From assembly GCA_027459625.1 (NCBI GenBank), contig DAIDHP010000031.1:1-46690 (forward strand): a stretch of 46,690 bases of DNA, written 5' to 3'. Under the pieces are notes generated by a model, which saw only the letters and a program-made list of their open reading frames with translations, searched no databases and had not been told where the DNA came from. This document shows positions 19,550 through 32,029 of this stretch, piece after piece (the stretch's first letter is position 1; each line of letters opens with the position of its first letter). The stretch is from Chthonomonadales bacterium. GTDB taxonomy: Bacteria; Armatimonadota; Chthonomonadetes; Chthonomonadales; CAJBBX01. Made by a program: the position numbers and the translations under genes.

Positions 19550-21295
19550 TTAATGTACAGGTTTCAGAGTGATGGAGCGTAAATTCATCACCGCGCCGCG
19601 CGGCATGATGATCGGTTCCACGCAAATGGTCTGCTTGCCCGCTGTCAGACTCAAACGCCCGTCCAGCGTTATTGTCTTGAAATCGCTCCAGCCGCCAGTG
19701 CCGTTCACTATGTTGCTAACCTTGGAATCCGTCCCGAGAGCTTTCACAGAGTAGAGAGTCCCTTGGGAGCCGTCGTCGCAAGCGTAATCCAGCCGTACTT
19801 GATAATCTCCCGCCTGGGGAACGTTTATTGTCCAATTGACAGTGTTGCTCTGATCCACCCAAAAGCCGACGCTGGGAGGCCCATTCAAACTCTCCAATTG
19901 CACCTTGTCCCCAACCAAAGTCGCTTCGGAAGCGGGAAGAATGAACTCTCCGTTGACGTTTGGCGATATCACAAGGGGTTCCAGTATAACATCTGGCTTG
20001 CCGGCCAACGTCAGCTTGATGACGGTGGCGTAATCATCCAATTTTTGCGGCATGGAGACAGTAATGTTGTCGCCATCCTGATGGAATGACACCGGGGAAT
20101 TGCCGTCCAATGCTGTGGCGGAAAGGACATGTGTTTTCAGTCCGTGCAATTCCACAGCCCCGTTCGGCGCTGTGAATACCTCCAGATAGAGAGCATTCCC
20201 TTTAACAGTGATTCTACCATCGAATTGCTGGCGCAACCACGGGCTCCGCGTTGTGCCATAGATGCATTGCCCGTTCGTATCCATCCATTTTCCCATTGCA
20301 AGCAGTCGATCCACCTCCGGTTGTGGTATGATCCCTTGATCGGTGGGGCCCACGTTAAGGAGGAAATTCCCGCCCTTGCTCGCGATGTCGCAGAGCTTCC
20401 GGATCAGATCCTGCGCCGATTTGAAATCAAAGTCCGTCTTATTGTAACCCCAATCATTGTTGATGGTCATACAGGTTTCCCAGAGACCTTGCGGACCTGT
20501 TGCGGGAATAGTCTGTTCCGGTGTACCATAGTCCCCCGCTCCGTTTTCGCGATTGTTGACAATTATGGAAGGGTCCTGTTTTCGCAGCCATGCGTAGAGC
20601 GATTTGCCATCCTCCGCCGTCCACCAGGTGGGCCATCCTCCATCAAACCATATAAGTCCGGGGTGATACTGTGTTATTAGTTCATGCAACTCCGTCTTCA
20701 TGTATTGAGTGTATGCCTCCAACTTGCCGGGAACTATTTTCGTCGGATTGTATTCCGGATGCTCAGGATCATCCACGGCCGGCTCCTGATCCGGACTGTG
20801 CCAATCCATGATGGAATAATAGACACAAAAACGCACGCCCTGTTTGCGGCACTGTTCAGCGAGATCCTTTAACGGATCATGATGCCACGGAGTGTCATCC
20901 ACCACGTTGTACTTTGTCGCCTTGGTTCGGAACATACAGAACCCATCGTGGTGCTTGGAGGTGATGACGAGGTACTTCATCCCAGCCTCCTTGGCGACTC
21001 TCACCCATTCCGCGGCGTTGAATTGCGTTGGATCGAATTGCTTCGCGTACTGTGCGTAGACATCCCGAGGCACGCGAGCGTTGTTCATGTACCATTCGCC
21101 CTGTGCGGGGACGGCGTAGATGCCCCAGTGAATGAACATCCCGAATTTAGCATCACGCCACCATGTGGTGCGTTTTGCGAACTGCGCTGGTGTCTCTTGT
21201 ATACTCTGCGCCTTGGAGAAAGGCTGGAGGGACAGGCATAAGAGTGCAGCAAGACCGAATATCCAGGCTGAGAGGAAACGAGTGTTTTTTCTCAT
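19550..21295 (-). CDS. Exported GH29 alpha-L-fucosidase with a C-terminal carbohydrate-binding-like domain
   Basis: The 581-residue protein has a signal peptide (IFGLAALLCLSLQPFSKAQS). The GH29 barrel shows FGMFIHWGIYAVPAQGEWY, ITSKHHDGFCMF and KQGVRFCVYYSIMDWH. The nucleophile is D218 in GLIWFDGGW; E260 in GDYGTPEQTIP is a candidate acid/base. After a beta domain, residues about 460-580 (VNWTINVPQAGDYQVRLDYA, then LTAGKQTICVEP) look like a CBM6/CBM35-type binding domain. It should remove terminal alpha-L-fucose from plant or animal glycans outside the cytoplasm. AAAGGAG lies eight bases before the ATG. It is divergent from the sugar importer at 21551, with 255 bp between, which could allow joint regulation. 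Confidence 0.93.
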   Translation of the reverse strand: MRKNTRFLSAWIFGLAALLCLSLQPFSKAQSIQETPAQFAKRTTWWRDAKFGMFIHWGIYAVPAQGEWYMNNARVPRDVYAQYAKQFDPTQFNAAEWVRVAKEAGMKYLVITSKHHDGFCMFRTKATKYNVVDDTPWHHDPLKDLAEQCRKQGVRFCVYYSIMDWHSPDQEPAVDDPEHPEYNPTKIVPGKLEAYTQYMKTELHELITQYHPGLIWFDGGWPTWWTAEDGKSLYAWLRKQDPSIIVNNRENGAGDYGTPEQTIPATGPQGLWETCMTINNDWGYNKTDFDFKSAQDLIRKLCDIASKGGNFLLNVGPTDQGIIPQPEVDRLLAMGKWMDTNGQCIYGTTRSPWLRQQFDGRITVKGNALYLEVFTAPNGAVELHGLKTHVLSATALDGNSPVSFHQDGDNITVSMPQKLDDYATVIKLTLAGKPDVILEPLVISPNVNGEFILPASEATLVGDKVQLESLNGPPSVGFWVDQSNTVNWTINVPQAGDYQVRLDYACDDGSQGTLYSVKALGTDSKVSNIVNGTGGWSDFKTITLDGRLSLTAGKQTICVEPIIMPRGAVMNLRSITLKPVH

Positions 21296-21550
21296 AAGAT
21301 AAGCTCCTTTTGACTGACATATAATGGATGTGATTCGAACTTAATATTTGCATGAAATAAGGTTATAACACAATACAAACCAACAAATCCATGCTTTAAA
21401 TCTTGTCACTCGGAAGACGAGTGCATCCGTATTGCGAATCGACGCATTGCAGTGAACCAAATGGATAATCCCAGACGCATGTAATTCACCTCTCCATTCA
21501 CGTCGTTTTTACGGTAAACTGAGACTATCCCTTATGAAAACGTGTGCGAT

Positions 21551-22945
21551 ATGCTCAAAACTTTTAAGCATCACACTCATTCCATTAACAAAATCACGGT
21601 TGCCCGAATCTCGCTGTTCGCGTGTATGGCGCTCGCCTCGCTCTGGTTTTCAGGATGCATGCCGGGAACCGGAGAACCCTCCGTTCCAGCAGTGGTGACC
21701 CCTTCCCTGCATCCAAGCGGCTCCATCACCGTGTGGAGTTGGAATATCGCCGCAAAGAGTCTGATGCGGCTCATTCCGGGTTTCAACAAACTCTACCCCG
21801 ATGTGAAGGTCAATGTGGACATGACCGGAGCCCAAATGCAGACACGCCTGATGCTCTCGCTTGCATGCGGAGTGGGAGCGCCGCAAGTATCGCAACTACA
21901 GCTAACCGACGCTCCACATTATATCGATACAGGCAGATTGGCGGACCTCACCCCCGTCGCAGCGCAACTAAGGAATAGTTTCCCCGACTACCTCTGGGAG
22001 AACTGCGAGAAAAACGGGCATGTCTACGCGATCCCATGGGACACAGGGCCCTGCGCGGTCTTCTACAAGCGCGATATCTTTCAGAAATACGGCATAGATC
22101 CGAAAAAGATCGACACTTGGGAGGACTATATCCAAGCAGGCGAGGAGATATTGCGGAAATCCGGCGGCAAAACGAAGATGCTGCCTCTGGGGTTGGATTC
22201 CCTGGAAAACATGTATCTGATCATTCTGCAGCAAGTCAGGGGACAAATTTTCGATGAACAGGGGAGAATCGCCATTAACTCCAAGGCTTCGCAGGAGGCT
22301 CTCGCCATCATCAAGGAGATGCGCAAGGCGGGCATATGCTCGGACGTGCAGATGTTTAGCCAGGAGTTCATGGCCGGCATAAACGATAACTCCATAGCCA
22401 CCTATCCCTCTGCGGTTTGGCTTGCGGGAACCATCCGCGCCACGACCAAGGATTTCGGACTTGGTAAATCCAGATGGGGCGTCTTCCGGCTCCCCGCCGT
22501 GACCAAGGGAGGCTTGCATGTGGCGAACTTTGGAGGCTCCGTGTTAGTCATTCCTGCGCAATGCAATAATAAGGCGGCGGCATGGGCATTTATCAAATAC
22601 GCACTATGTTCACGCAAGGGGCAGGCGGACCAATATCGCAATTTCGATCTCTTCCCAGCCTATCTCCCCGCGCAAAAGATGCCGCAGGTAACGGAACAGG
22701 ATAAATTCTTCGGAGGGGAGCGCGTCGGAGTTCTCTTCGCCAGGGATATTTCAAAAATATCCAAGCTCAATATCACACCGGACTGGGCGGAGGCGTCCAC
22801 TTACATCGAAGAGGCGTTGAGTGACTGGGCCGCCAACGGCATGCATAGCCGCAACTTCTTTGGCAAACTGGAGATCAGGATGCAGCGCAGGTTGGGAGAT
22901 CCGATATCGCCGCAATCGCTCAGATATTCGGAGAATAACGGATGA
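21551..22945 (+). CDS. Sugar ABC importer, substrate-binding lipoprotein
   Basis: This family-1 extracellular solute-binding protein starts MLKTFKHHTHS, followed by a hydrophobic leader and lipobox WFSGC, so it should be lipid-anchored. An in-frame GTG at 21542 is an alternative start, and neither has a strong ribosome site. Typical blocks are GSITVWSWNIAAKSLMRLIP, VYAIPWDTGPCAVFYKRDIF and GGSVLVIPAQCNNKAAAWAF. It delivers sugar to the two permeases encoded directly downstream; its stop codon overlaps the next start as ATGA. Divergence from the GH29 gene hints at an oligosaccharide from fucosylated glycans, but the ligand is not visible in sequence. Confidence 0.92.
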   Translation: MLKTFKHHTHSINKITVARISLFACMALASLWFSGCMPGTGEPSVPAVVTPSLHPSGSITVWSWNIAAKSLMRLIPGFNKLYPDVKVNVDMTGAQMQTRLMLSLACGVGAPQVSQLQLTDAPHYIDTGRLADLTPVAAQLRNSFPDYLWENCEKNGHVYAIPWDTGPCAVFYKRDIFQKYGIDPKKIDTWEDYIQAGEEILRKSGGKTKMLPLGLDSLENMYLIILQQVRGQIFDEQGRIAINSKASQEALAIIKEMRKAGICSDVQMFSQEFMAGINDNSIATYPSAVWLAGTIRATTKDFGLGKSRWGVFRLPAVTKGGLHVANFGGSVLVIPAQCNNKAAAWAFIKYALCSRKGQADQYRNFDLFPAYLPAQKMPQVTEQDKFFGGERVGVLFARDISKISKLNITPDWAEASTYIEEALSDWAANGMHSRNFFGKLEIRMQRRLGDPISPQSLRYSENNG

Positions 22946-23865
22946 AAAACGATACCGAATCTCAATGGAGGCGGGATATCATTAAATATCGCCATTTCTA
23001 TCTGTTCATTTCGCCCTTTTTCATCCTTTTCGCCGCCTTCAGCCTCTATCCCGTTCTCTTTTCGTTGTTTCTCAGCTTTATGAAGTGGAACGGACTCACG
23101 CAATGGAAGTGGGTGGGATTGGGCAATTTCACCTCCATGCTCTATGACGATATCCTGTGGCGCTCGCTCTGGAACACACTCATCATCGGACTGCTCTACA
23201 TCCCGCCGATGATGATCCTCGCTTTTATCTTCGCTCAGGTGCTAAACGCCGAATGGCTGAAACTTCGAGCGTTCTATCGCGCCGCGCTTTTTTTGCCGTG
23301 CGTCACCCCGATGGTGGTGATCGCCATCGTCTTTAGCCTCATATTCAGTTCAGAGAAGGGGGTGCTGAACTACGCCATCATGGGCGTCGGTCATATGCTC
23401 CCCTTTCTGCACCTCAAACCGATCCCTTGGTTGGAAAGCGAATCCTGGTCGAAGACATCCGTGGCGATTCTGGTGGTGTGGAGGTGGACGGGCTACAATA
23501 TGATTATCATGCTGGCGGGTTTGCAGGGCATTCCGATGGAGTATTACGAGGCGGCGATGGTGGACGGAGCCGGAGTGTGGGAGCGAGTGAAAAGCGTCAC
23601 GATGCCATTGATGCGCCCCACATTCGCCTTCTGCGGCTTGTTGTCGTTGCTTGGAACGGTGTACATGTTCGACGAGATTTTCGTGCTAACCAACGGAGGC
23701 CCCGGAGTCTCCTCCATGAACTTCGGCTTGTATCTCTTCAACTTGTCCTTCACCGATTTCAAGTTCGGGTACGCTTCCTGCGTGGCGTACACTGTCGCGG
23801 TGGCGGTCTTTTTTATCACCCTTGCGGGGCTTCGCATTACTCGCCAAAGAGAGGAGGCGAAATAG
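22942..23865 (+). CDS. Sugar ABC importer permease, MalF/UgpA type
   Basis: The 307-residue protein has six predicted membrane segments beginning YLFISPFFILFAAFSLYPVL. The EAA loop that docks with the ATPase is EYYEAAMVDGAGVWERVKSV. The start overlaps the binding-protein stop (ATGA), indicating coupled translation. It pairs with the MalG-type permease that starts three bases beyond its stop. Confidence 0.95.
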   Translation: MKNDTESQWRRDIIKYRHFYLFISPFFILFAAFSLYPVLFSLFLSFMKWNGLTQWKWVGLGNFTSMLYDDILWRSLWNTLIIGLLYIPPMMILAFIFAQVLNAEWLKLRAFYRAALFLPCVTPMVVIAIVFSLIFSSEKGVLNYAIMGVGHMLPFLHLKPIPWLESESWSKTSVAILVVWRWTGYNMIIMLAGLQGIPMEYYEAAMVDGAGVWERVKSVTMPLMRPTFAFCGLLSLLGTVYMFDEIFVLTNGGPGVSSMNFGLYLFNLSFTDFKFGYASCVAYTVAVAVFFITLAGLRITRQREEAK

Positions 23866-23868
23866 GAG

Positions 23869-24714
23869 ATGTCAACCTCACCAAAAATGCGACGCATGCT
23901 GGCGATGGGGGTGTTTTACGTCGTGCTTACGGCGATTGCGTTTCTGTTTCTCTTTCCGTTCTACTGGCTTTTGATTTCAGCGTTCAAAACCCAGGCGCAA
24001 ATATTCACCATCCCTCCTCAATGGGTTCCTCGTCCGATCATCTTCAATAACTTCGCGGAGTTGTATCGGCAGACCGATCTTTTCCGCGCCTTTTTGAACT
24101 CCTGCATCATCTCCGGCGGGAATGTCCTTCTGACCCTGTTCCTCTGCTCCCTGGCGGGGTACGCCTTCGCCAAATACCCGCAGGCGAGGGGACACGGCAA
24201 ACTGTTTAATTTCATCCTCGCCTCGATGATGATTCCCGGCGCGGTGACACTCATCCCATCGTTCCTCATGTTGGTGTGGCTGCATCTCATCAACACTTAC
24301 TGGGCGATGATTATCCCCGGATCGGCAAGCGCCTTCGGCATCTTCTGGATGCGGCAATACGTGAGTTCCAATGTGCCTGACGATCTTGTGAACGCAGCGC
24401 GAATCGATGGTTGCACGGAGTTTGAAATCTATTGGAGGATCGCCGTTCCGATTTCCAAGCCGGCGCTCGCCGCGCTGGGCATCATGCAACTCATCGCCTC
24501 CTGGAACAACCTAATGTGGGCTTTCGTGGTGTTGCGCACCTCCAATATGCTCACGCTGCCCGTGGTGATCTATTTGCTGCAGGGGGAGGTACGCACCCCC
24601 TTCGGAATGCTTATGGCGGGAGGTCTCATGACCACCCTCCCCCTCATTCTTGCGTTCCTTTTCTTCCAGAAGCAATTTGTCGCGGGGATAACGGCGGGGG
24701 CGATAAAGCAATAG
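23869..24714 (+). CDS. Sugar ABC importer permease, MalG/UgpE type
   Basis: The 281-residue protein has six predicted membrane segments and starts with FYVVLTAIAFLFLFPFYWLL after a short basic tail. Its EAA loop is DDLVNAARIDGCTEFEIYWR. AGGAG lies just before the ATG, overlapping the end of the previous gene. No ATP-binding subunit follows: the next gene is an unrelated broken one. The importer probably uses a shared MsmK/MalK-type ATPase encoded elsewhere, as is common for this family. Confidence 0.95.
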   Translation: MSTSPKMRRMLAMGVFYVVLTAIAFLFLFPFYWLLISAFKTQAQIFTIPPQWVPRPIIFNNFAELYRQTDLFRAFLNSCIISGGNVLLTLFLCSLAGYAFAKYPQARGHGKLFNFILASMMIPGAVTLIPSFLMLVWLHLINTYWAMIIPGSASAFGIFWMRQYVSSNVPDDLVNAARIDGCTEFEIYWRIAVPISKPALAALGIMQLIASWNNLMWAFVVLRTSNMLTLPVVIYLLQGEVRTPFGMLMAGGLMTTLPLILAFLFFQKQFVAGITAGAIKQ

Positions 24715-24822
24715 CCAAGATTAAAAGTACTTATGAGGTGATCACAAAGTGCCTACTTTCACAATTTGATTCGAGTTACATGACAAGGAGTGTGAATTAT
24801 CCATCTACAAAGGTTGTATGAT

Positions 24823-25338
24823 ATGTCAAATTCGGAAACAGCAACGAGCATCATTGACAACCGTAATGGCAATACCCTTCATCATGCCATTGAGGAAATA
24901 GGAGCCTCCGGCAAAGTATTGAAGCTTGCCAGCGCTTTCTTCTCGCTTGATGGCTTGGTTCTTCTTGCGGATACCTTGGAGAAATACGATTGCATACGGA
25001 TTCTTTTCGGGGATGACTCCAGTAAAGCCCAGCGTCAGAAATTAATGCAAATGATGCAAGCGCGATCCGATGACGCTTTGCTCAATCAACGATTCGAAAC
25101 CCCTTTGCTCGCACCGCTGCAAAAAGTGAAAAGATTGTTCAACGAGGGAAAGGTTGAGGTTCGTTGTTACACCGCGTAAAAATTCCACGCAAAGGCGTAT
25201 CTTATCAATCGACCGGAGATATATCCTCGATATTTGGGAATCATCGGCAGCGGTAATTTCACACGCCCTGGTTTGCTGCAAAATATCGAGTTGAACGTTC
25301 ATCTCACACCCGAGCAGACCGCAAACTCCGCGTATTGA
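24823..25338 (+). pseudogene. Fragment of a PLD/HKD-type protein (N-terminal domain of a helicase-like family), nonsense-mutated and truncated
   Basis: Residues 1-119 (from ATG 24823) read DNRNGNTLHHAIEEIGASG, ASAFFSLDGLVLLADTLEKY and VKRLFNEGKVEVRCYTA, then a TAA stops the frame at 25177-25179. The same frame continues with KFHAKAYLI and IIGSGNFTRPGLLQNIELNV, exactly the HKD phosphodiesterase motif and the following GSxNFT block. It ends at 25338, inside DNA that also reads as istA on the other strand. So one nonsense codon and a 3' deletion by an IS21-type fragment have destroyed the gene. Related full-length proteins join this domain to an SNF2-type helicase, often in defence or restriction loci. 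That part is absent here. Confidence 0.8.
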
Positions 25339-25941
25339 GCTCGGGAGTAACCTAATACCATGCTGAAAAGATAGTAGGGGCGCTCGACACCGTCGGGACA
25401 ACGAGCCTTGAACACGCCGTAGTCCACCTGGGCCTGAAGACCGGGATCCGTCTCGAAGCGAACGTAGGCGATTCGGGAGTTGCGCTCCTTGATGCGCCGA
25501 ACGGCGTCGCGAACAATCGTGCGTCCCCCATCAAAACCCATTTCCACAAGACGATCGTATATCCTTGACGCGCGCCATCCGGAATCCTCGGCGAGCCAGG
25601 ACTCCAAGTAGGGAAGATACGGGGTGAGCTTCCCCTTGCGAACAACCGCCTTGCGGGGACGATTGACAAGTTCCGGATTAAGAGCGTAACGCTTGACCGT
25701 CCTTCGATCCAGCCCCGTATCGCGAGCTATCCTGCTGAACGAAAGACCGTGTCTGAACAGAAAATTAATTGACATTTGAACCTCCGGTGTTATCATAATT
25801 GAATGTCTCCCTCCAAGTTGTGACATACTTGGTAAACGGAGCCGGAGGGGCGTGGAATTGCATTCTTCGCCCCCGATTTGTATCACGGAGTGTACATTTT
25901 CATACCGTCATTTTCTGTACATTTTGACACCGCTATTGACA
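25320..25941 (-). mobile_element. Truncated IS21-family element (one end plus 5' part of istA)
   Basis: The intact end is at 25941, reading TGTCAATAGCGGTGTCAAAA on the minus strand. It contains the repeated subterminal units typical of IS21 ends: TGTACATTTTCATACCG (25891-25907) and TGTACATTTTGACACCG (25916-25932). Only the first part of istA remains and istB and the other end are missing. The inner breakpoint is near 25310-25335, where the PLD-type gene begins. No target duplication can be identified. Confidence 0.8.
25325..25796 (-). pseudogene. istA: IS21 transposase IstA, N-terminal fragment
   Basis: From ATG 25796 (MITPEVQMSINFL) the fragment has the IstA N-terminal helix-turn-helix GLSFSRIARDTGLDRRTVKR. 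A second DNA-binding segment follows (GWRASRIYDRLVEMGFDGGR), then the start of the DDE integrase core with the first catalytic Asp in LQAQVDYGVF. It loses homology at about EFAV, roughly residue 155, where a full IstA of about 500 residues would continue. A GGAGGGAG ribosome site lies about ten bases upstream. It cannot be an active transposase. Confidence 0.85.
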
Positions 25942-25992
25942 CATGCCAGCTACGTGCCTTTCCGGGCGTAAGCTTGATGATTGTTGCCCCTC

Positions 25993-26012
25993 TTATTTGA
26001 CGGTTATTTGAT
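25993..26012. repeat. 20-bp repeat, left copy, flanking the orphan promoter
   Basis: TTATTTGACGGTTATTTGAT differs at two positions from TTATTTGATGGTTATTTGAC at 26078-26097. Each copy is itself a tandem pair of TTATTTGA units. The two copies bracket the promoter-like sequence at 26024-26051, so they may be operator sites. Confidence 0.6.
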
Positions 26013-26023
26013 TGCATCACGGA

Positions 26024-26051
26024 TTGATAACTACATGTGGCGTGCTATAAT
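26024..26051 (+). promoter_or_regulatory. Near-consensus sigma-70 promoter without a downstream gene
   Basis: TTGATA (26024-26029) and TATAAT (26046-26051) are 16 bases apart. No plus-strand coding region follows. The transcript would run through three palindromes and the hairpin repeat array before meeting the convergent VWA gene end at 26456. Confidence 0.6.
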
Positions 26052-26077
26052 TGTCAAAAACCATATATAGTTATTTT

Positions 26078-26097
26078 TTATTTGATGGTTATTTGAC
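26078..26097. repeat. 20-bp repeat, right copy
   Basis: TTATTTGATGGTTATTTGAC is the partner of the copy at 25993-26012, 85 bases downstream and about 27 bases past the -10 element, a position suited to a repressor site. Confidence 0.6.
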
Positions 26098-26107
26098 ACA
26101 AACTAAC

Positions 26108-26211
26108 CCTCGGGATAAATCCCGAGGTACACTCTCACAAATGGCGTGAACGCCATACCCTCTCACCTCCCCCCTTAAAAACCCCCTCCCCCCCTATGCC
26201 ATTCATGGCAT
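26108..26211. repeat. Three consecutive palindromes
   Basis: CCTCGGGATAAATCCCGAGG (26108-26127) is a 20-bp palindrome with 9-bp arms. ATGGCGTGAACGCCAT (26141-26156) has 7-bp arms and a 2-base centre. ATGCCATTCATGGCAT (26196-26211) has 6-bp arms and a 4-base loop. C-rich spacers separate them. The GGGATAAATCCC core recurs as GGGATTTATCCC in the array that follows. Confidence 0.75.
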
Positions 26212-26228
26212 TCGTTAGCGTGCACTTC

Positions 26229-26436
26229 GGGATTTATCCCGTAGTGCGGAAGGTGGCGGGGGTTATCCCGTAGTGCGGAAGTTTGCGGGGATTCCGTAGT
26301 GCTGAAGGTGACGGGGATTCCGTAGTGCGGAAGGTTGCAGGGATTCCGTAGTGCGGGAGGTGGCGTGGGTTATCCCGTAGTGCGAGACTAGGATTTATCC
26401 CGTAGTGCTGGAGGCGCGGATCGGATTCCGTGATGG
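26229..26436. repeat. Tandem array of about eight mini-hairpin units
   Basis: The core CCGTAGTGC starts at 26239, 26268, 26294, 26320, 26346, 26375 and 26400, with a degenerate copy at 26428. The period is 25-29 bp. A typical unit, ATTCCGTAGTGCGGAAGGT, forms a stem TTCCG/CGGAA with loop TAGTG. Two flavours alternate (TTATCCCG and ATTCCG), which accounts for most of the period change. There are no unique spacers, so it is not CRISPR. It lies directly after the stop of the last VWA-locus gene. Confidence 0.85.
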
Positions 26437-26455
26437 CTTTACGCAGGCAAAGCGC

Positions 26456-28852
26456 TCACAACATCCCGCTCTTCTTTCGCACAAACCACTCCACGCCCAA
26501 CGGAACGATGAAGAGGATAAGGAGGATGGGGGCGTCCCAGAGGTCTATCTCCGATTCGCTCTTAACGACAGGCGCTCGCAGGGTTAGGCTACTGATCCAT
26601 TTGTTAATCTCATCGGGATGCAGATACATCCCCCCACCCGCCGCCGCAATCTTTTTCAGCAACGCTTCGTTCATCTCCGGCTGCTGCCGCTCCAACGCGA
26701 TGCTCTGCACCAGATACTGACAGGTCGCTTTTGCCGATGGATTGGCGGGGGATGCGACGCTTAACTGGAATTTGCCGATCCGGTCCGCAAGGAAGTCTCC
26801 CGAGAACAGCCCGGGACTTGCGGGAGAGCTTGTCAGCACGATGGAGGAGGTAACGCCGGTATCGCTCTTGATGGTGACGGTGGCTGTGCGATCCTTCACC
26901 GGGCGATAAAACGCATCGAGCAACCTTGCATGAACGGAGACTCGATCCCCCAGCAGATACTCCGATCGATCCGTGTTCACTTGGGCGAAACGGTTCCCTC
27001 CCGGTGTCTCCTCCGGGGTCATGGCGCGTATCGCCTGCCCCCAGTAGCGATAAAAATAGCGGTCGCCAACTTTCCACCGCCAGTGCCAGCACCCGTCGGT
27101 GGTGGTGAGCAGGCATCGTCCCGCGCCGAAGTTCTGAACCGCAAGGAGAATTCTTTTGCCGTAGGCGTTGCTGCGTCTGGAGTTCACGGCCAGCACCGTC
27201 GCGCCCGGCTTCGCTTTAGTCACGCCGGCGCACCAGTACATTCCAGGCATAGTCCTCCATATTTGGGCGTTTTCGCCAGGGTTGTTGGACATGCGCAGCA
27301 TCGGGTCCGCCCATCCCTGCGAGGTCAGTTCCCACTGGAAAGGATCATTCGTAATCACCTGCTCCGGAGTTGAGGGCACCACCACTGGAAAGATCGCGTT
27401 GAGCGGAGTGTTGAGATACTCCCACGGCATATGCTGCTGGCCGCAGATGATAATGAGTGATCCCCCCTTATCCTCCACGAAATGACGGATATTCTCCAAC
27501 TGTAGATCGCTGAAATAGCTTCGCGGCACATCCCCGATGATCAGGATATCGTATTTGAAAAGGCTTTGCTCATCCGTTGGAAAACCGTCAATGGGCACAT
27601 CCCCCTCTCCCCCGGGTGCGGGATTGCCCACCGTGAGCAGACAACTGAACTCGATCTGCTTGTCACGCAGGACCGCGTTTTTCAGGTAGCGGTACTCCCA
27701 TCTCGGAGTCCCCTCAACGTAGAGAATTTTCAGCTTCTTTGAAGTGACTTTCTGGATGTAGCTGCGCTTGTTGCTCTGGGTGGTCACCTCTCCCGGCAAC
27801 ACCGGAGTGGATACGGTGTAGGTGAAAACCCCGTCCTGTTTCGGCACATAAGTGAAGGTGACAGTCTGTTTTTGCGAAGAGGCTCCGAGGCGCAGGGATT
27901 TCGTCGCCACCATCGAGCCGTTTCGTATCAGAGTGAGAGAGATGGTTTTGCCATCGTAGCCTCGCTGAGAGACGCCGACATACACCTGCACCTGCCCGTT
28001 CTTTCTCACCACCTGATCCGCAAGCACCTCCGTGATGGCGAGATTTTTCGTGGGTGTTGGATCACCAATTCCAAGGGCGCTGATCCTCACACCTTGCGTT
28101 CGTCCGCTCGAAGCCAGGTTTACGGGGTCATCCCCCAGATTATTCCCTCCGTCGGAGAGTATCAACGCACCAGCCACCGGTTGACCGGAAACGTCATCCA
28201 AGACCTTGCGCAAGGCGGTCCCTATCTGCGTGGAGTGACCTTGTATCGGATCCGGTATGTCCTGAAACTTCCACGATGCAAGTTTAGCGGGTTGAACCGG
28301 CAGAGGAACTGCGTGACTGTCGCTGCAGAATGTGTAAAGCCGCACATTGTATCGCTTGGACAACTCGGAAATGAGATTTGTGCGGGGATTGTTGATGATT
28401 TGGCTGACTATCTGCGCACGGGTCATTCCGTACGGATTCCCCCCGATCGCTCTCGTCTCCTGCGCCAATCTCGCGGCGGAAAGATGAGGGTCCTTGTAAC
28501 CCATGCTCAAGGAATTATCCGCGAGCAGAATCACGCTTGGCCGTATGGCGGCGCTATGCTGAAGTCTCAGCATCGGTTGGAGGAGCATCATAATCAAGGC
28601 GAATAACGCCACCAATCGCAAGAGAAGCAGCGGAATTTTCACCCATAACGAGGGGCGGCGTCCATCCTTGAGGTAAAAATACCCGAACCATATCGCAGAA
28701 AGGAGCATAAGGATCACGATGGTTTTCACCGGCCATCCCGCCGCGAAATACAACTCCATTCGGCTCAACTGCTTCGCCGATTCCTTGGATATGCCAAGCA
28801 GACTTCGTACCCAGTCCATCATCAATATCAGGTTGTACGCATTATTGAGCAT
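26456..28852 (-). CDS. VWA-domain membrane protein with amidotransferase-like domain (last gene of the MoxR/VWA locus)
   Basis: The 798-residue protein has two N-terminal membrane helices (VKTIVILMLLSAIWFGYFYL and LLLLRLVALFALIMMLLQP). A VWA domain follows with the metal-site motif DNSLSM in VILLADNSLSMGYKD. After a beta domain, residues about 375-560 (LKILYVEGTPRWEYRYLKNA, KYDILIIGDVP, EDKGGSLIIICG) resemble a class-I glutamine amidotransferase fold with no obvious catalytic Cys. A last membrane helix (LLILFIVPLGVEWFVRKKSG) ends the protein, so most of it should be extracytoplasmic. The start lies 24 bp after the BatA-like gene, with a close GAGGA. A role in MoxR-dependent assembly or quality control at the envelope is inferred. 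Confidence 0.88.
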   Translation of the reverse strand: MLNNAYNLILMMDWVRSLLGISKESAKQLSRMELYFAAGWPVKTIVILMLLSAIWFGYFYLKDGRRPSLWVKIPLLLLRLVALFALIMMLLQPMLRLQHSAAIRPSVILLADNSLSMGYKDPHLSAARLAQETRAIGGNPYGMTRAQIVSQIINNPRTNLISELSKRYNVRLYTFCSDSHAVPLPVQPAKLASWKFQDIPDPIQGHSTQIGTALRKVLDDVSGQPVAGALILSDGGNNLGDDPVNLASSGRTQGVRISALGIGDPTPTKNLAITEVLADQVVRKNGQVQVYVGVSQRGYDGKTISLTLIRNGSMVATKSLRLGASSQKQTVTFTYVPKQDGVFTYTVSTPVLPGEVTTQSNKRSYIQKVTSKKLKILYVEGTPRWEYRYLKNAVLRDKQIEFSCLLTVGNPAPGGEGDVPIDGFPTDEQSLFKYDILIIGDVPRSYFSDLQLENIRHFVEDKGGSLIIICGQQHMPWEYLNTPLNAIFPVVVPSTPEQVITNDPFQWELTSQGWADPMLRMSNNPGENAQIWRTMPGMYWCAGVTKAKPGATVLAVNSRRSNAYGKRILLAVQNFGAGRCLLTTTDGCWHWRWKVGDRYFYRYWGQAIRAMTPEETPGGNRFAQVNTDRSEYLLGDRVSVHARLLDAFYRPVKDRTATVTIKSDTGVTSSIVLTSSPASPGLFSGDFLADRIGKFQLSVASPANPSAKATCQYLVQSIALERQQPEMNEALLKKIAAAGGGMYLHPDEINKWISSLTLRAPVVKSESEIDLWDAPILLILFIVPLGVEWFVRKKSGML

Positions 28853-28876
28853 GGTTCCTCGTCATCGCTGTGTATT

Positions 28877-31027
28877 CTACCTGCGCCCAAAGCGTTGCGC
28901 CAGAAACGCCTCAAGGAAAAGCAACGGCAACGCAATAAACAACATCATTCGCCACAGTTCGGTACCTCTTCTATTGCGCCTGACCACCGTCATAATATCC
29001 TCGGATGAATGCGCGAATTGTGTCTGACTGGAACCCAATTCCGCCGCAACTTGCGAGTTTTTCAATCCCCTTAAATCCGATTCATCCGAGGGAAGATTCA
29101 ATGCGAATGCGTCGGAGATCGGCTTCCCGGCGACGCCGAAAGTGTAAATTCCAGCGTAACCGGTATGCGTGTAGGTGGCTATCGTCCCATCCGCTCCAAG
29201 CACGGAATTGATCAACTCCACATTCCCCTCAGGGTTCATCACCCGAATGGGTTTCCCCGCATCCTGAACGTCAAATCGAGAGAGTAACGTCGACCCAAGC
29301 GGAAGATTGCGCTGCGAAGTCGGTCCAGCGGCGAGATAAGCCACAAGCTGCTGGATGATCGGGAGATACGCGGGCTTGAATGGAAGCGTTCCTCCGCTAA
29401 TCCCGGCGGGAAACGCGGAAAGAAGTATCTTTCCCTGCCCGTATCGCCTCTCAACCAGGGCGGGTTCTCCGTTGCTGAAAAGACAGTCGACATTGACCGA
29501 ATTTCCGGCGCTCGGCTTTAGACCGAACACCTGAGTGAACTGTGGCGTGGTTAAATCGATATCCTGATTGTTACGGAAGGAGTTCAGGGCGGGCTGGTTG
29601 ATTGAAGCCGCATTCAAAGTCAGGGCGTTCGATTCGCTGTAAACATGGCGTGAGCCAAGAAGAGCGGGGAGCAAATTGTTGGCGCCGCCCAACTCACTAT
29701 TGACTTGACCGGGATTGGTGTGCGGTCCAGGGAAAAGAAACACTCCCCCCCCATTCGAAACGAAATCCTGTAACGCCAGCCGATCCTGCGTCGTGAAACC
29801 GGTCATCCCTGTCACCACCACCGCATCATAATTGCGCAGGTTCAGTCCCGCCAGCTTGGAGCCAGGGTGCACCGTCACCAAAATGGATGTCGCTGTTCCC
29901 GAAGAGGCTCCCGTCGGGGATAACGCGGTCACAAGGTAAAACGCCTCGTCATGTGCGGGATCCTGAGTCGGAACCGGGTCCGCCACCAAAACTTTCAGTT
30001 TATTCCTCACTTTCGCGGAAAACCAGGCGATGTTATCCTTTGCAAGATGATCCACGCTTTCCAAGCGAACGGAGCCAGTGTGAACGCCTGGCTTGGCGAA
30101 AAGATACATGAAGGTCGCCTGGGTCTTGCCCCAGGCTGGAACATCCACCCTCGTGGATCCCGCCGCATGACCGTCCACGTAAAGGTCCACAAGCATTCCA
30201 TTTCGAGCCGTCGGTGTGTAATTATGGATCATGGCTTCAATTCGAACGGGAGCCTGCGGGGTGATGAGTTCTCGGCTAAATACGGGCGTTCCAACGGAGA
30301 GGTTTTCACGGTCGGGCGAAGCCGTATCGATCCATGTAACTCTCGCATCTCCCGCGAGCTCTTTCCATGCGTCCTGAAGGCGGGAATTCCCCTCTTCCGG
30401 ATAACCGACCTTTTGATTATCCGTGATCCAATAGACTTCCCTTACGGGTGTTTTCACCGGCTTCAGCAATTTGGCGCAGAAAAGGGCTCCAGCCGCATAA
30501 TCGGTGCCGTAATCGCTAAGCGTGGCTTTTTGCAGTTCCTGTCGCGCCTTGCCAAGCGAGTAGGTTGGCTCTTGAATGAGCGCTACGGGGTGATTGGACA
30601 AGAGCACGATCTGCACGGAATCCCCTTGCTTGAGTGCCCTTCCAAGGATATCCTCCGCCACTTTCTTGCCCTTGTCAAAGTCGCTTAGATTCCCGTTCTT
30701 GTAACCCATGCTAAAAGAATTATCCAGGACGATCATCGCGTGAACCCTCGCGTCCTCCGACACAATGGGCAGCCCCATTGTCTGCAACAGGGGTCGAGCG
30801 AAAGCCAAAACCACCAGGCATACGATCAGAATTCTCACTATCAGCAGGATCAACTGCTCGATACGCAGCCTCCGCCGATTCTTCCTGCGCGATTGGAGGA
30901 GAAACTCCCACGCCGCCCACGGGATGACCCGAATGCGTTTACGACGCATTAAATGTATAAGGATCGGAATGGCGATCAGGCTTAATGCGCCGAGAAAAGC
31001 TGGATTTAAAAAGGATAGAGCGGACAT
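28877..31027 (-). CDS. BatA-like VWA membrane protein
   Basis: The protein proper starts MSALSFLNPAFLGALSLIAI, the characteristic BatA N-terminus with the following RRKRIRVIPWAAWEFLLQS. A longer frame to 31177 overlaps the DUF58 gene and has no family match in its first 50 residues, so 31027 is preferred. A second membrane segment (LILLIVRILIVCLVVLAFAR) precedes a VWA domain with MIVLDNSFSMGYK (DxSxS). An amidotransferase-like segment follows (NYDAVVVTGMTGFTTQDRL, SNGGGVFLFPGP). A C-terminal helix (MMLFIALPLLFLEAFLAQRF) ends it. It is about 717 residues, far longer than Bacteroides BatA. It lies 53 bp after DUF58 and 24 bp before the second VWA gene. Confidence 0.9.
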   Translation of the reverse strand: MSALSFLNPAFLGALSLIAIPILIHLMRRKRIRVIPWAAWEFLLQSRRKNRRRLRIEQLILLIVRILIVCLVVLAFARPLLQTMGLPIVSEDARVHAMIVLDNSFSMGYKNGNLSDFDKGKKVAEDILGRALKQGDSVQIVLLSNHPVALIQEPTYSLGKARQELQKATLSDYGTDYAAGALFCAKLLKPVKTPVREVYWITDNQKVGYPEEGNSRLQDAWKELAGDARVTWIDTASPDRENLSVGTPVFSRELITPQAPVRIEAMIHNYTPTARNGMLVDLYVDGHAAGSTRVDVPAWGKTQATFMYLFAKPGVHTGSVRLESVDHLAKDNIAWFSAKVRNKLKVLVADPVPTQDPAHDEAFYLVTALSPTGASSGTATSILVTVHPGSKLAGLNLRNYDAVVVTGMTGFTTQDRLALQDFVSNGGGVFLFPGPHTNPGQVNSELGGANNLLPALLGSRHVYSESNALTLNAASINQPALNSFRNNQDIDLTTPQFTQVFGLKPSAGNSVNVDCLFSNGEPALVERRYGQGKILLSAFPAGISGGTLPFKPAYLPIIQQLVAYLAAGPTSQRNLPLGSTLLSRFDVQDAGKPIRVMNPEGNVELINSVLGADGTIATYTHTGYAGIYTFGVAGKPISDAFALNLPSDESDLRGLKNSQVAAELGSSQTQFAHSSEDIMTVVRRNRRGTELWRMMLFIALPLLFLEAFLAQRFGRR

Positions 31028-31080
31028 ATGCAGTCGTTTCCTACCGCGACTCCCCAACCCATGGGTTGTGACGGAATCCT

Positions 31081-31986
31081 TTAATAATTCATTCGTTGAT
31101 GTAAGTATCGCGCCAATGCGTCGTCGACGGGCATATCCGTGGGCATCTGGACGTAATCCATGTTCATGTCTCTGCACCCACGCATCAATTTCCGCACGAA
31201 GGCGTTGAACGCCTCCATGTAGGTTTTTCGCAAGGCGTTCGGCTCCGCTGGAAGTTGCCCCTCCTCCTCCATTCCCTCGAAAATGCAGGACTCCTTGAAC
31301 GGGAAAGTCAGTTCATAACGATCGAGAAGATGGAAGACAATCACCTCGTGCTTGCGATGTCGGAAATGCTGTAACCCTTTGATGATCTCATCGGGGTCGT
31401 CGAAGAAATCGCTAAAAATCATCACCAGCCCCCGACGCTTGATACGCTCGGCAAGGTCGTGCATCGTTCCGCTGACGTTAGTGCGGGGAGCGGTCTGTGC
31501 GGACTCCAAAAGGCGCAGCATCTCCCTCATTTGGGACGCCAATCCGGAGGGAGGGAGAAAGACTTGGATGCCATCGTTGAACAGAGAGAGCCCCACTGCG
31601 TCTCTCTGCTGAAGAAGCAGCGACCCTAAGGCGGACGCGAGGATGCCGGCGTAATCCAATTTGGAAAGCGGACCGGATTTGTAATTCATGGAGTTGCTGG
31701 AGTCCACAAGCAGATATGCTTTGAGGTTCGTCTCCTCCTCGTACTGCTTGATGTAATACCTATCCGACCGACCATACACTTTCCAGTCGATATGCCGTAT
31801 CTCATCCCCCTGTGTATAATCCCGATGTTGCGCAAACTCCACGCTGTAGCCGCGATGAGGGCTTTTATGCATTCCTGAAATAACCCCCTCCACCACCAAC
31901 CGTGCGCGCAATTCCAGCTTGGCGATGCGTGCGAGGGTTTGAGGGTCTGCGGCGCGACTATATTCCGTCTCCGTTTTACTTGGCAT
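31081..31986 (-). CDS. DUF58 protein, MoxR partner
   Basis: The 301-residue cytoplasmic protein carries the DUF58 signature YTQGDEIRHIDWKVYGRSD (57-75). It also has a VWA-like core with YLLVDSSNSMNYK (D95, S97 and S99 form DxSxS) and LVMIFSDFFDDPDEIIKGL. DUF58 proteins are almost always encoded next to MoxR ATPases and are thought to recruit them to targets. It starts 43 bp after the moxR gene. Confidence 0.95.
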   Translation of the reverse strand: MPSKTETEYSRAADPQTLARIAKLELRARLVVEGVISGMHKSPHRGYSVEFAQHRDYTQGDEIRHIDWKVYGRSDRYYIKQYEEETNLKAYLLVDSSNSMNYKSGPLSKLDYAGILASALGSLLLQQRDAVGLSLFNDGIQVFLPPSGLASQMREMLRLLESAQTAPRTNVSGTMHDLAERIKRRGLVMIFSDFFDDPDEIIKGLQHFRHRKHEVIVFHLLDRYELTFPFKESCIFEGMEEEGQLPAEPNALRKTYMEAFNAFVRKLMRGCRDMNMDYVQMPTDMPVDDALARYLHQRMNY

Positions 31987-32029
31987 TTAGTTTCACTTCC
32001 GCTATGTGAGATTGAACCGTAATGGCCGC

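Follow-up and report, generated by a model that had tools for sequence, protein, structure and literature searches.

The segment between positions 24823 and 25941 of the window, as we call the whole analysed stretch of 46,690 nucleotides that forms contig C31 of its genome assembly (4.55 Mb in 114 contigs), is an ordinary pseudogene joined to the remnant of an insertion sequence (IS). It spans from the ATG of a truncated gene, which in its intact form combines an N-terminal PLD domain with an SNF2-type helicase, to the outermost base of one end of an IS21-family element (Table 1). The segment likely constitutes a relic without function, and a functional role is unlikely. An earlier note, made from the sequence alone, had described a PLD/HKD gene fused to an IS21 fragment, which is confirmed by the homology of the gene, the match of its partner to an IS21 profile and the recurrence of the IS end at other locations, and its view of a gene of helicase/PLD type that was hit twice, by a nonsense codon and by the loss of its 3' part, is equally supported. 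We consider it highly probable that the relic has originated from a gene copy with an IS21 element on its 3' side by a single deletion, which has joined the two stumps at 25322/25323. Annotation should not list the PLD stump as a protein-coding gene, nor does the istA piece represent an active transposase.

Table 1. Features of the relic and its right flank, in coordinates of the window.
Feature	Position	Strand	Remarks
5' remnant of N-terminal-PLD/SNF2-helicase gene	24823..25322	+	500 bases (166 codons and 2 bases); homology to G006:C124
In-frame TAA	25177..25179	+	Three codons before first catalytic His (TAA-K-F-H-A-K); sense codon in G006 homologue
Frame continuing past stop	25180..25322	+	HxK(x)4N and GSGNFTRPGL; PLDc_2 match
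Junction of gene remnant and IS remnant	25322..25323		No microhomology visible; G006:C124 homology ends at 25322, G006:C46 homology starts at 25323
istA codons 1-158, IS21 family, 3' part lost	25323..25796	-	NF033546 match
IS left end and istA leader	25797..25941	-	Outer end 5'-TGTCAATAGCGGTGTCAAAATGTACA; terminal bases shared with C21 and C49
Unmatched sequence between IS end and dispersed palindromic repeats	25942..26104		163 bases; no match elsewhere in own genome or in G006 orthologous region

The gene remnant comprises about the first sixth of the original gene. Its frame is open from the ATG apart from a single TAA, which is located directly ahead of the HKD motif as stated in the earlier note, and it resumes thereafter with KFHAKAYLIN...GSGNFTRPGL. 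The piece following the stop matches the Pfam family PLDc_2 with an E-value of 6e-05 and 23.3 bits, under the gathering score of 27, while the intact homologue from a genome of the same genus (G006) reaches 40.7 bits. When compared to the DISARM DrmC model, the read-through piece of the window scores 12.3 bits, below the curated score of 133. The acidic position of the HKD motif is occupied by Asn in the window and in G006, by Glu in the homologue of G008 and by Thr in that of G009, which indicates that the acid is not conserved among these proteins. The SNF2-type helicase part, which is present in the G006 homologue, is deleted from the window, and a search for the missing 3' part in the own genome assembly has retrieved only paralogues at 25-34% identity and a stretch of 42% identity in the paralogue on contig C37.

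Our search for intact homologues, which had been proposed as a check, was successful in G006, G008, G009 and G011. The closest of them (G006:C124) encodes a protein of 1069 residues, with PLDc_2 followed by ResIII and Helicase_C. Its residues 1-168 are 88-89% identical to the remnant with an E-value of 1.5e-98, thus excluding a chance match, and at the DNA level the correspondence extends from 24796 to 25322 with 87% identity. A scan of genome contigs has identified a single locus, which is the G006 contig JAJZOL010000062.1 (a MAG record, 100% identity). The orthologues from three further genera share 59% (G008), 59% (G009) and 48% (G011) identity and all contain long frames, which illustrates that the stop truncates a longer conserved protein instead of marking the end of a naturally short one. 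We have also considered the G011 homologue as a second broken copy, since it contains one TAG within its first few residues, and have rejected this assignment as the TAG precedes an open frame of 855 codons.

The comparison to the intact G006 gene over 165 codons yields a dS of 0.48 and a dN of 0.053. The resulting ratio of 0.11 and the similar balance of synonymous to non-synonymous changes on both sides of the stop (29/15 before and 10.5/4.5 after) suggest that selection on the gene persisted until recently, and judged from these sequences its decay is young compared to the split from G006. With these values, the gene piece is more diverged than the neighbouring importer genes, for which the same comparison shows ratios of 0.03-0.07 and dS values of 0.26-0.34.

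The second partner is an inverted and truncated istA that replaces the 3' part of the gene, as had been claimed, and whose first 158 codons run on the minus strand towards 25323. It matches the NCBIfam model NF033546 of IS21 transposases at positions 4-154 of 294 with 120.5 bits and an E-value of 9.8e-35. This score is under the whole-protein cut-off of 160 bits, which is expected for a truncated piece. Terminal repeats that contain TGTACA are typical of IS21 ends, and a motif of this kind is repeated at the end of the element. Contigs C21 and C49 begin with exact copies of the last 77 and 76 bases of the IS, respectively, with 25866-25941 common to all three locations. Since the flanks differ in each case, the outer end of the IS is real. 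The remnant resembles other IS21 elements in the IstA helix-turn-helix and the first part of the catalytic core, and it differs from them in the absence of istB, the right end and the target duplication, so that only the left 619 bases of the element remain.

There is no istB next to the istA piece and none above cut-off in the own genome, where the suggested search for full-length copies of the element has likewise found none assembled. Such copies may nevertheless exist and fail to assemble, as is suggested by the contig breaks at the IS end. In 291 genomes of the phylum, including the own one, the search with the istA piece has recovered only relatives at 48-54% identity and weaker ones, with the nearest at 54% and 48%, and matches at E <= 1e-20 in 6 of the 290 other genomes. 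Two further remnants were identified, a diverged left end of 82% identity on contig C83 and an interior piece in G006 (G006:C46) that extends past the junction point of the window. On C83, the contig starts with direct repeats of the unit CTTCTAATAGAACCAGCGTGGAATTGAAAC (L011 1-230), which resemble the end of a CRISPR array and are followed by a palindromic repeat and the diverged left-end remnant (L011 455-698).

Both partners are cut at one point, in line with the earlier note, as the homology to the gene extends to 25322 and that to the IS begins at 25323, without overlap. An insertion of the IS into the gene itself would be expected to leave the remaining 3' gene sequence beyond the IS end, which is not seen. 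Instead, the flank between 25942 and 26104 has no match to the G006 gene or to the sequence 3' of it, and since it is not gene sequence, the IS was probably located outside the gene. In the history that we favour, an extra stand-alone gene copy of the restriction type, encoding a PLD-nuclease/SNF2-helicase, would have resided between the sugar-importer operon and the dispersed palindromic repeats, and an IS21-family element would have inserted on its 3' side with the left end pointing outwards. One deletion from codon 167 of the gene into istA would have removed about 900 gene codons and, on the side of the IS, its right end, istB and the 3' part of istA, and the nonsense codon could have arisen either before or after this event.

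The earlier note had proposed a deletion between two insertions. While the junction is best accounted for by a deletion, a pair of insertions need not be assumed, as one IS and one deletion are enough. A scenario where the gene copy and the IS arrived as two independent insertions, with a later deletion of the sequence between them, is prompted by the fact that the gene copy is missing from this site in G006 and carried there after a fucosidase gene, and might thus have been inserted here. However, a loss of the gene from this position in G006 is an alternative, and inspection by eye of the left side (24772-24796) has revealed no end of a mobile element, which leaves separate insertions as a plausible though less likely route to the relic. 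The 118-codon frame preceding the stop could alternatively encode a retained short protein such as a truncated partner or inhibitor. Although the excess of synonymous changes in this part indicates conservation, conservation is just as strong behind the stop, all four orthologues (at 48-88% identity) have kept the body of the frame open, and the short frame itself lacks the catalytic motif and contains no domain recognized by Pfam or NCBIfam. A retained short protein is for these reasons highly improbable.

A different concern relates to the assembly, as the junction at 25322/25323 is known from one assembled contig. In the cell, the IS stump might not be adjacent to the gene stump or to the sequence following 25941, and the pieces could have been joined in the assembly across the repeated IS, whose end is evidently a repeat where the assembly breaks, with both C21 and C49 starting inside it. 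Yet, the junction lies within the IS at a distance of 542 bases from the shared bases, the istA bases 25323-25796 are without full-length match elsewhere in the own genome, and G006 has the same gene order on either side of the segment. A chimera is thus unlikely, and the risk of a misassembly resides chiefly at the outer end of the IS.

The surroundings of the relic were compared to those in related genomes. The last base of the operon for the sugar ABC importer is 24714, and G006 aligns to the window as far as 24771 and then again beginning at 26105. Between these matches, it contains 304 bp of unrelated sequence (L038 4313-4616, G006:C227) with a short ORF, and the search for a clean empty site in relatives, which had been recommended as a check, has thus not been successful. 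In the two genomes of the genus compared, the gene and IS remnants at this site are confined to the own genome. It appears that different sequences are acquired at this site between the importer and the repeats. Outside the own genome, the importer operon was found beside the VWA-domain gene in G006 only, and in all ten other genomes of the family, the available flank of the VWA gene contains neither importer nor PLD gene, with some of the contigs ending close by.

To the right of the IS, the unmatched sequence holds two near-identical 19-base repeats and a promoter-like TTGATA-16-TATAAT at 26024-26051, although such sites are equally frequent in shuffles, and sites resembling promoters and terminators across the region remain within the range of shuffled sequences. 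At gathering scores, no match to Rfam was obtained within 20000-32000. The palindromic repeats at 26105-26420, such as CGGGATAAATCCCG at 26111 and CGGGATTTATCCCG at 26228 (2 found, 0.05 expected), belong to a dispersed REP-like family, as evident from matches of about 50 bases on many other contigs. The intact gene on G006:C124 is also followed by this REP-like block, at the contig end.

The own genome contains a second trace of the gene. On contig C24, a stump of 31 codons (L031 2439-2531, G000:C24:26438-26530) is located behind the gene of a 551-residue fucosidase, in a neighbourhood that aligns to G006 continuously over 2531 bases with 90% identity and extends into the gene as far as codon 31. 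Since the orthologous position thus carries its own stump, the one in the window is an extra, separately decayed copy. Over 93 shared bases, 24 differences were counted between the window and C24, 20 between the window and G006 and 15 between C24 and G006, and the window copy could be either a duplicate of the C24 copy or a separate arrival. The C24 stretch (L031) does not contain an exact copy of the IS end found in the window.

Beyond these stumps, the own genome contains three open frames of paralogous helicase proteins of about 25% identity (L044 2262-7000 on C37, L070 917-7509 on C2 and L071 4533-7784 on C3), which on C37 and C2 are directly followed by a methyltransferase-like frame. The contrast between the destroyed solitary copies and these pairs, which have remained open, could be taken to suggest that the independent loss of both copies reflects repeated selection against a restriction nuclease without a protecting methyltransferase, an explanation to which we assign a low probability. 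The locus represents a small case of turnover of a restriction-type gene, which persists intact in a close relative, and which in the own genome is accompanied by a second stump at the native position and by open paralogous nuclease-helicase/methyltransferase pairs.

The probable role of the intact gene can be approached from its relationships. Its best match in PADLOC is to C3a139 (HKD+Snf2) with an E-value of 4.2e-44, aligning residues 98-885 to positions 95-756 of the profile. With 149 bits for a model of 948 positions, the G006 protein is a distant relative, and of such a protein the window retains only the first 166 codons. The intact homologue scores 121 bits against NF042964, a phospholipase D-like anti-phage protein, and 115 bits against DISARM DrmD, compared to curated scores of 1100 and 610, respectively. 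In the PDB, phmmer has identified for the G006 protein no PLD-helicase restriction enzyme and 13 helicase-type sequences (including ISWI remodellers, RapA and FANCM). As its scores are far under the NCBIfam cut-offs and its PDB matches are of helicase type only, we assign no firm family name.

The earlier note had placed the gene among the helicase/PLD type of defence loci. This assignment is in part sustained by the sister-genus orthologues of the genomes G008 and G009, which overlap the gene of an Eco57I-type methyltransferase (type IIG-like in PADLOC) and in this way support the label of a defence type. It is not reflected in G006, where the intact copy is the last gene before the contig end, following the fucosidase and an MgtE-type gene, where the flank that is present carries no defence gene, and where no methyltransferase of the Eco57I type is found besides one on C142. 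We infer from these sequence relationships that the intact gene has a restriction-like role.

Two described systems share features with the protein. SauUSI, a type IV restriction enzyme from Staphylococcus aureus, is in the excerpt of the source considered here described as a single chain with an N-terminal PLD nuclease at residues 1-191, containing the motif H(X)K(X)4E at 119-126, which is followed by an SF2 helicase-like ATPase (PMC7913695). As far as this excerpt extends, the G006 protein appears similarly organized, with the PLD domain placed first, an HxK(x)4 motif starting at His122 and a helicase thereafter, although its sister-genus orthologues adjoin a methyltransferase gene, unlike the stand-alone type IV enzyme. 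In Type-2 BREX-related (BR) systems, again according to an excerpt of the source, an HKD-endoDNase is located N-terminally on a Swi2/Snf2 helicase that works with an N6-methyltransferase, and the systems additionally carry a DUF499 ATPase and DUF3780 (PMC12839542). DUF499 and DUF3780 are not among the scanned neighbours of the orthologues, with the contigs of G006, G008 and G009 ending next to the gene or gene pair, in case of G008 and G009 inside the methyltransferase gene. The likeness to the part of these systems described in the excerpt is found in the union of an HKD nuclease with an Snf2 helicase and in the partnership with a methyltransferase.
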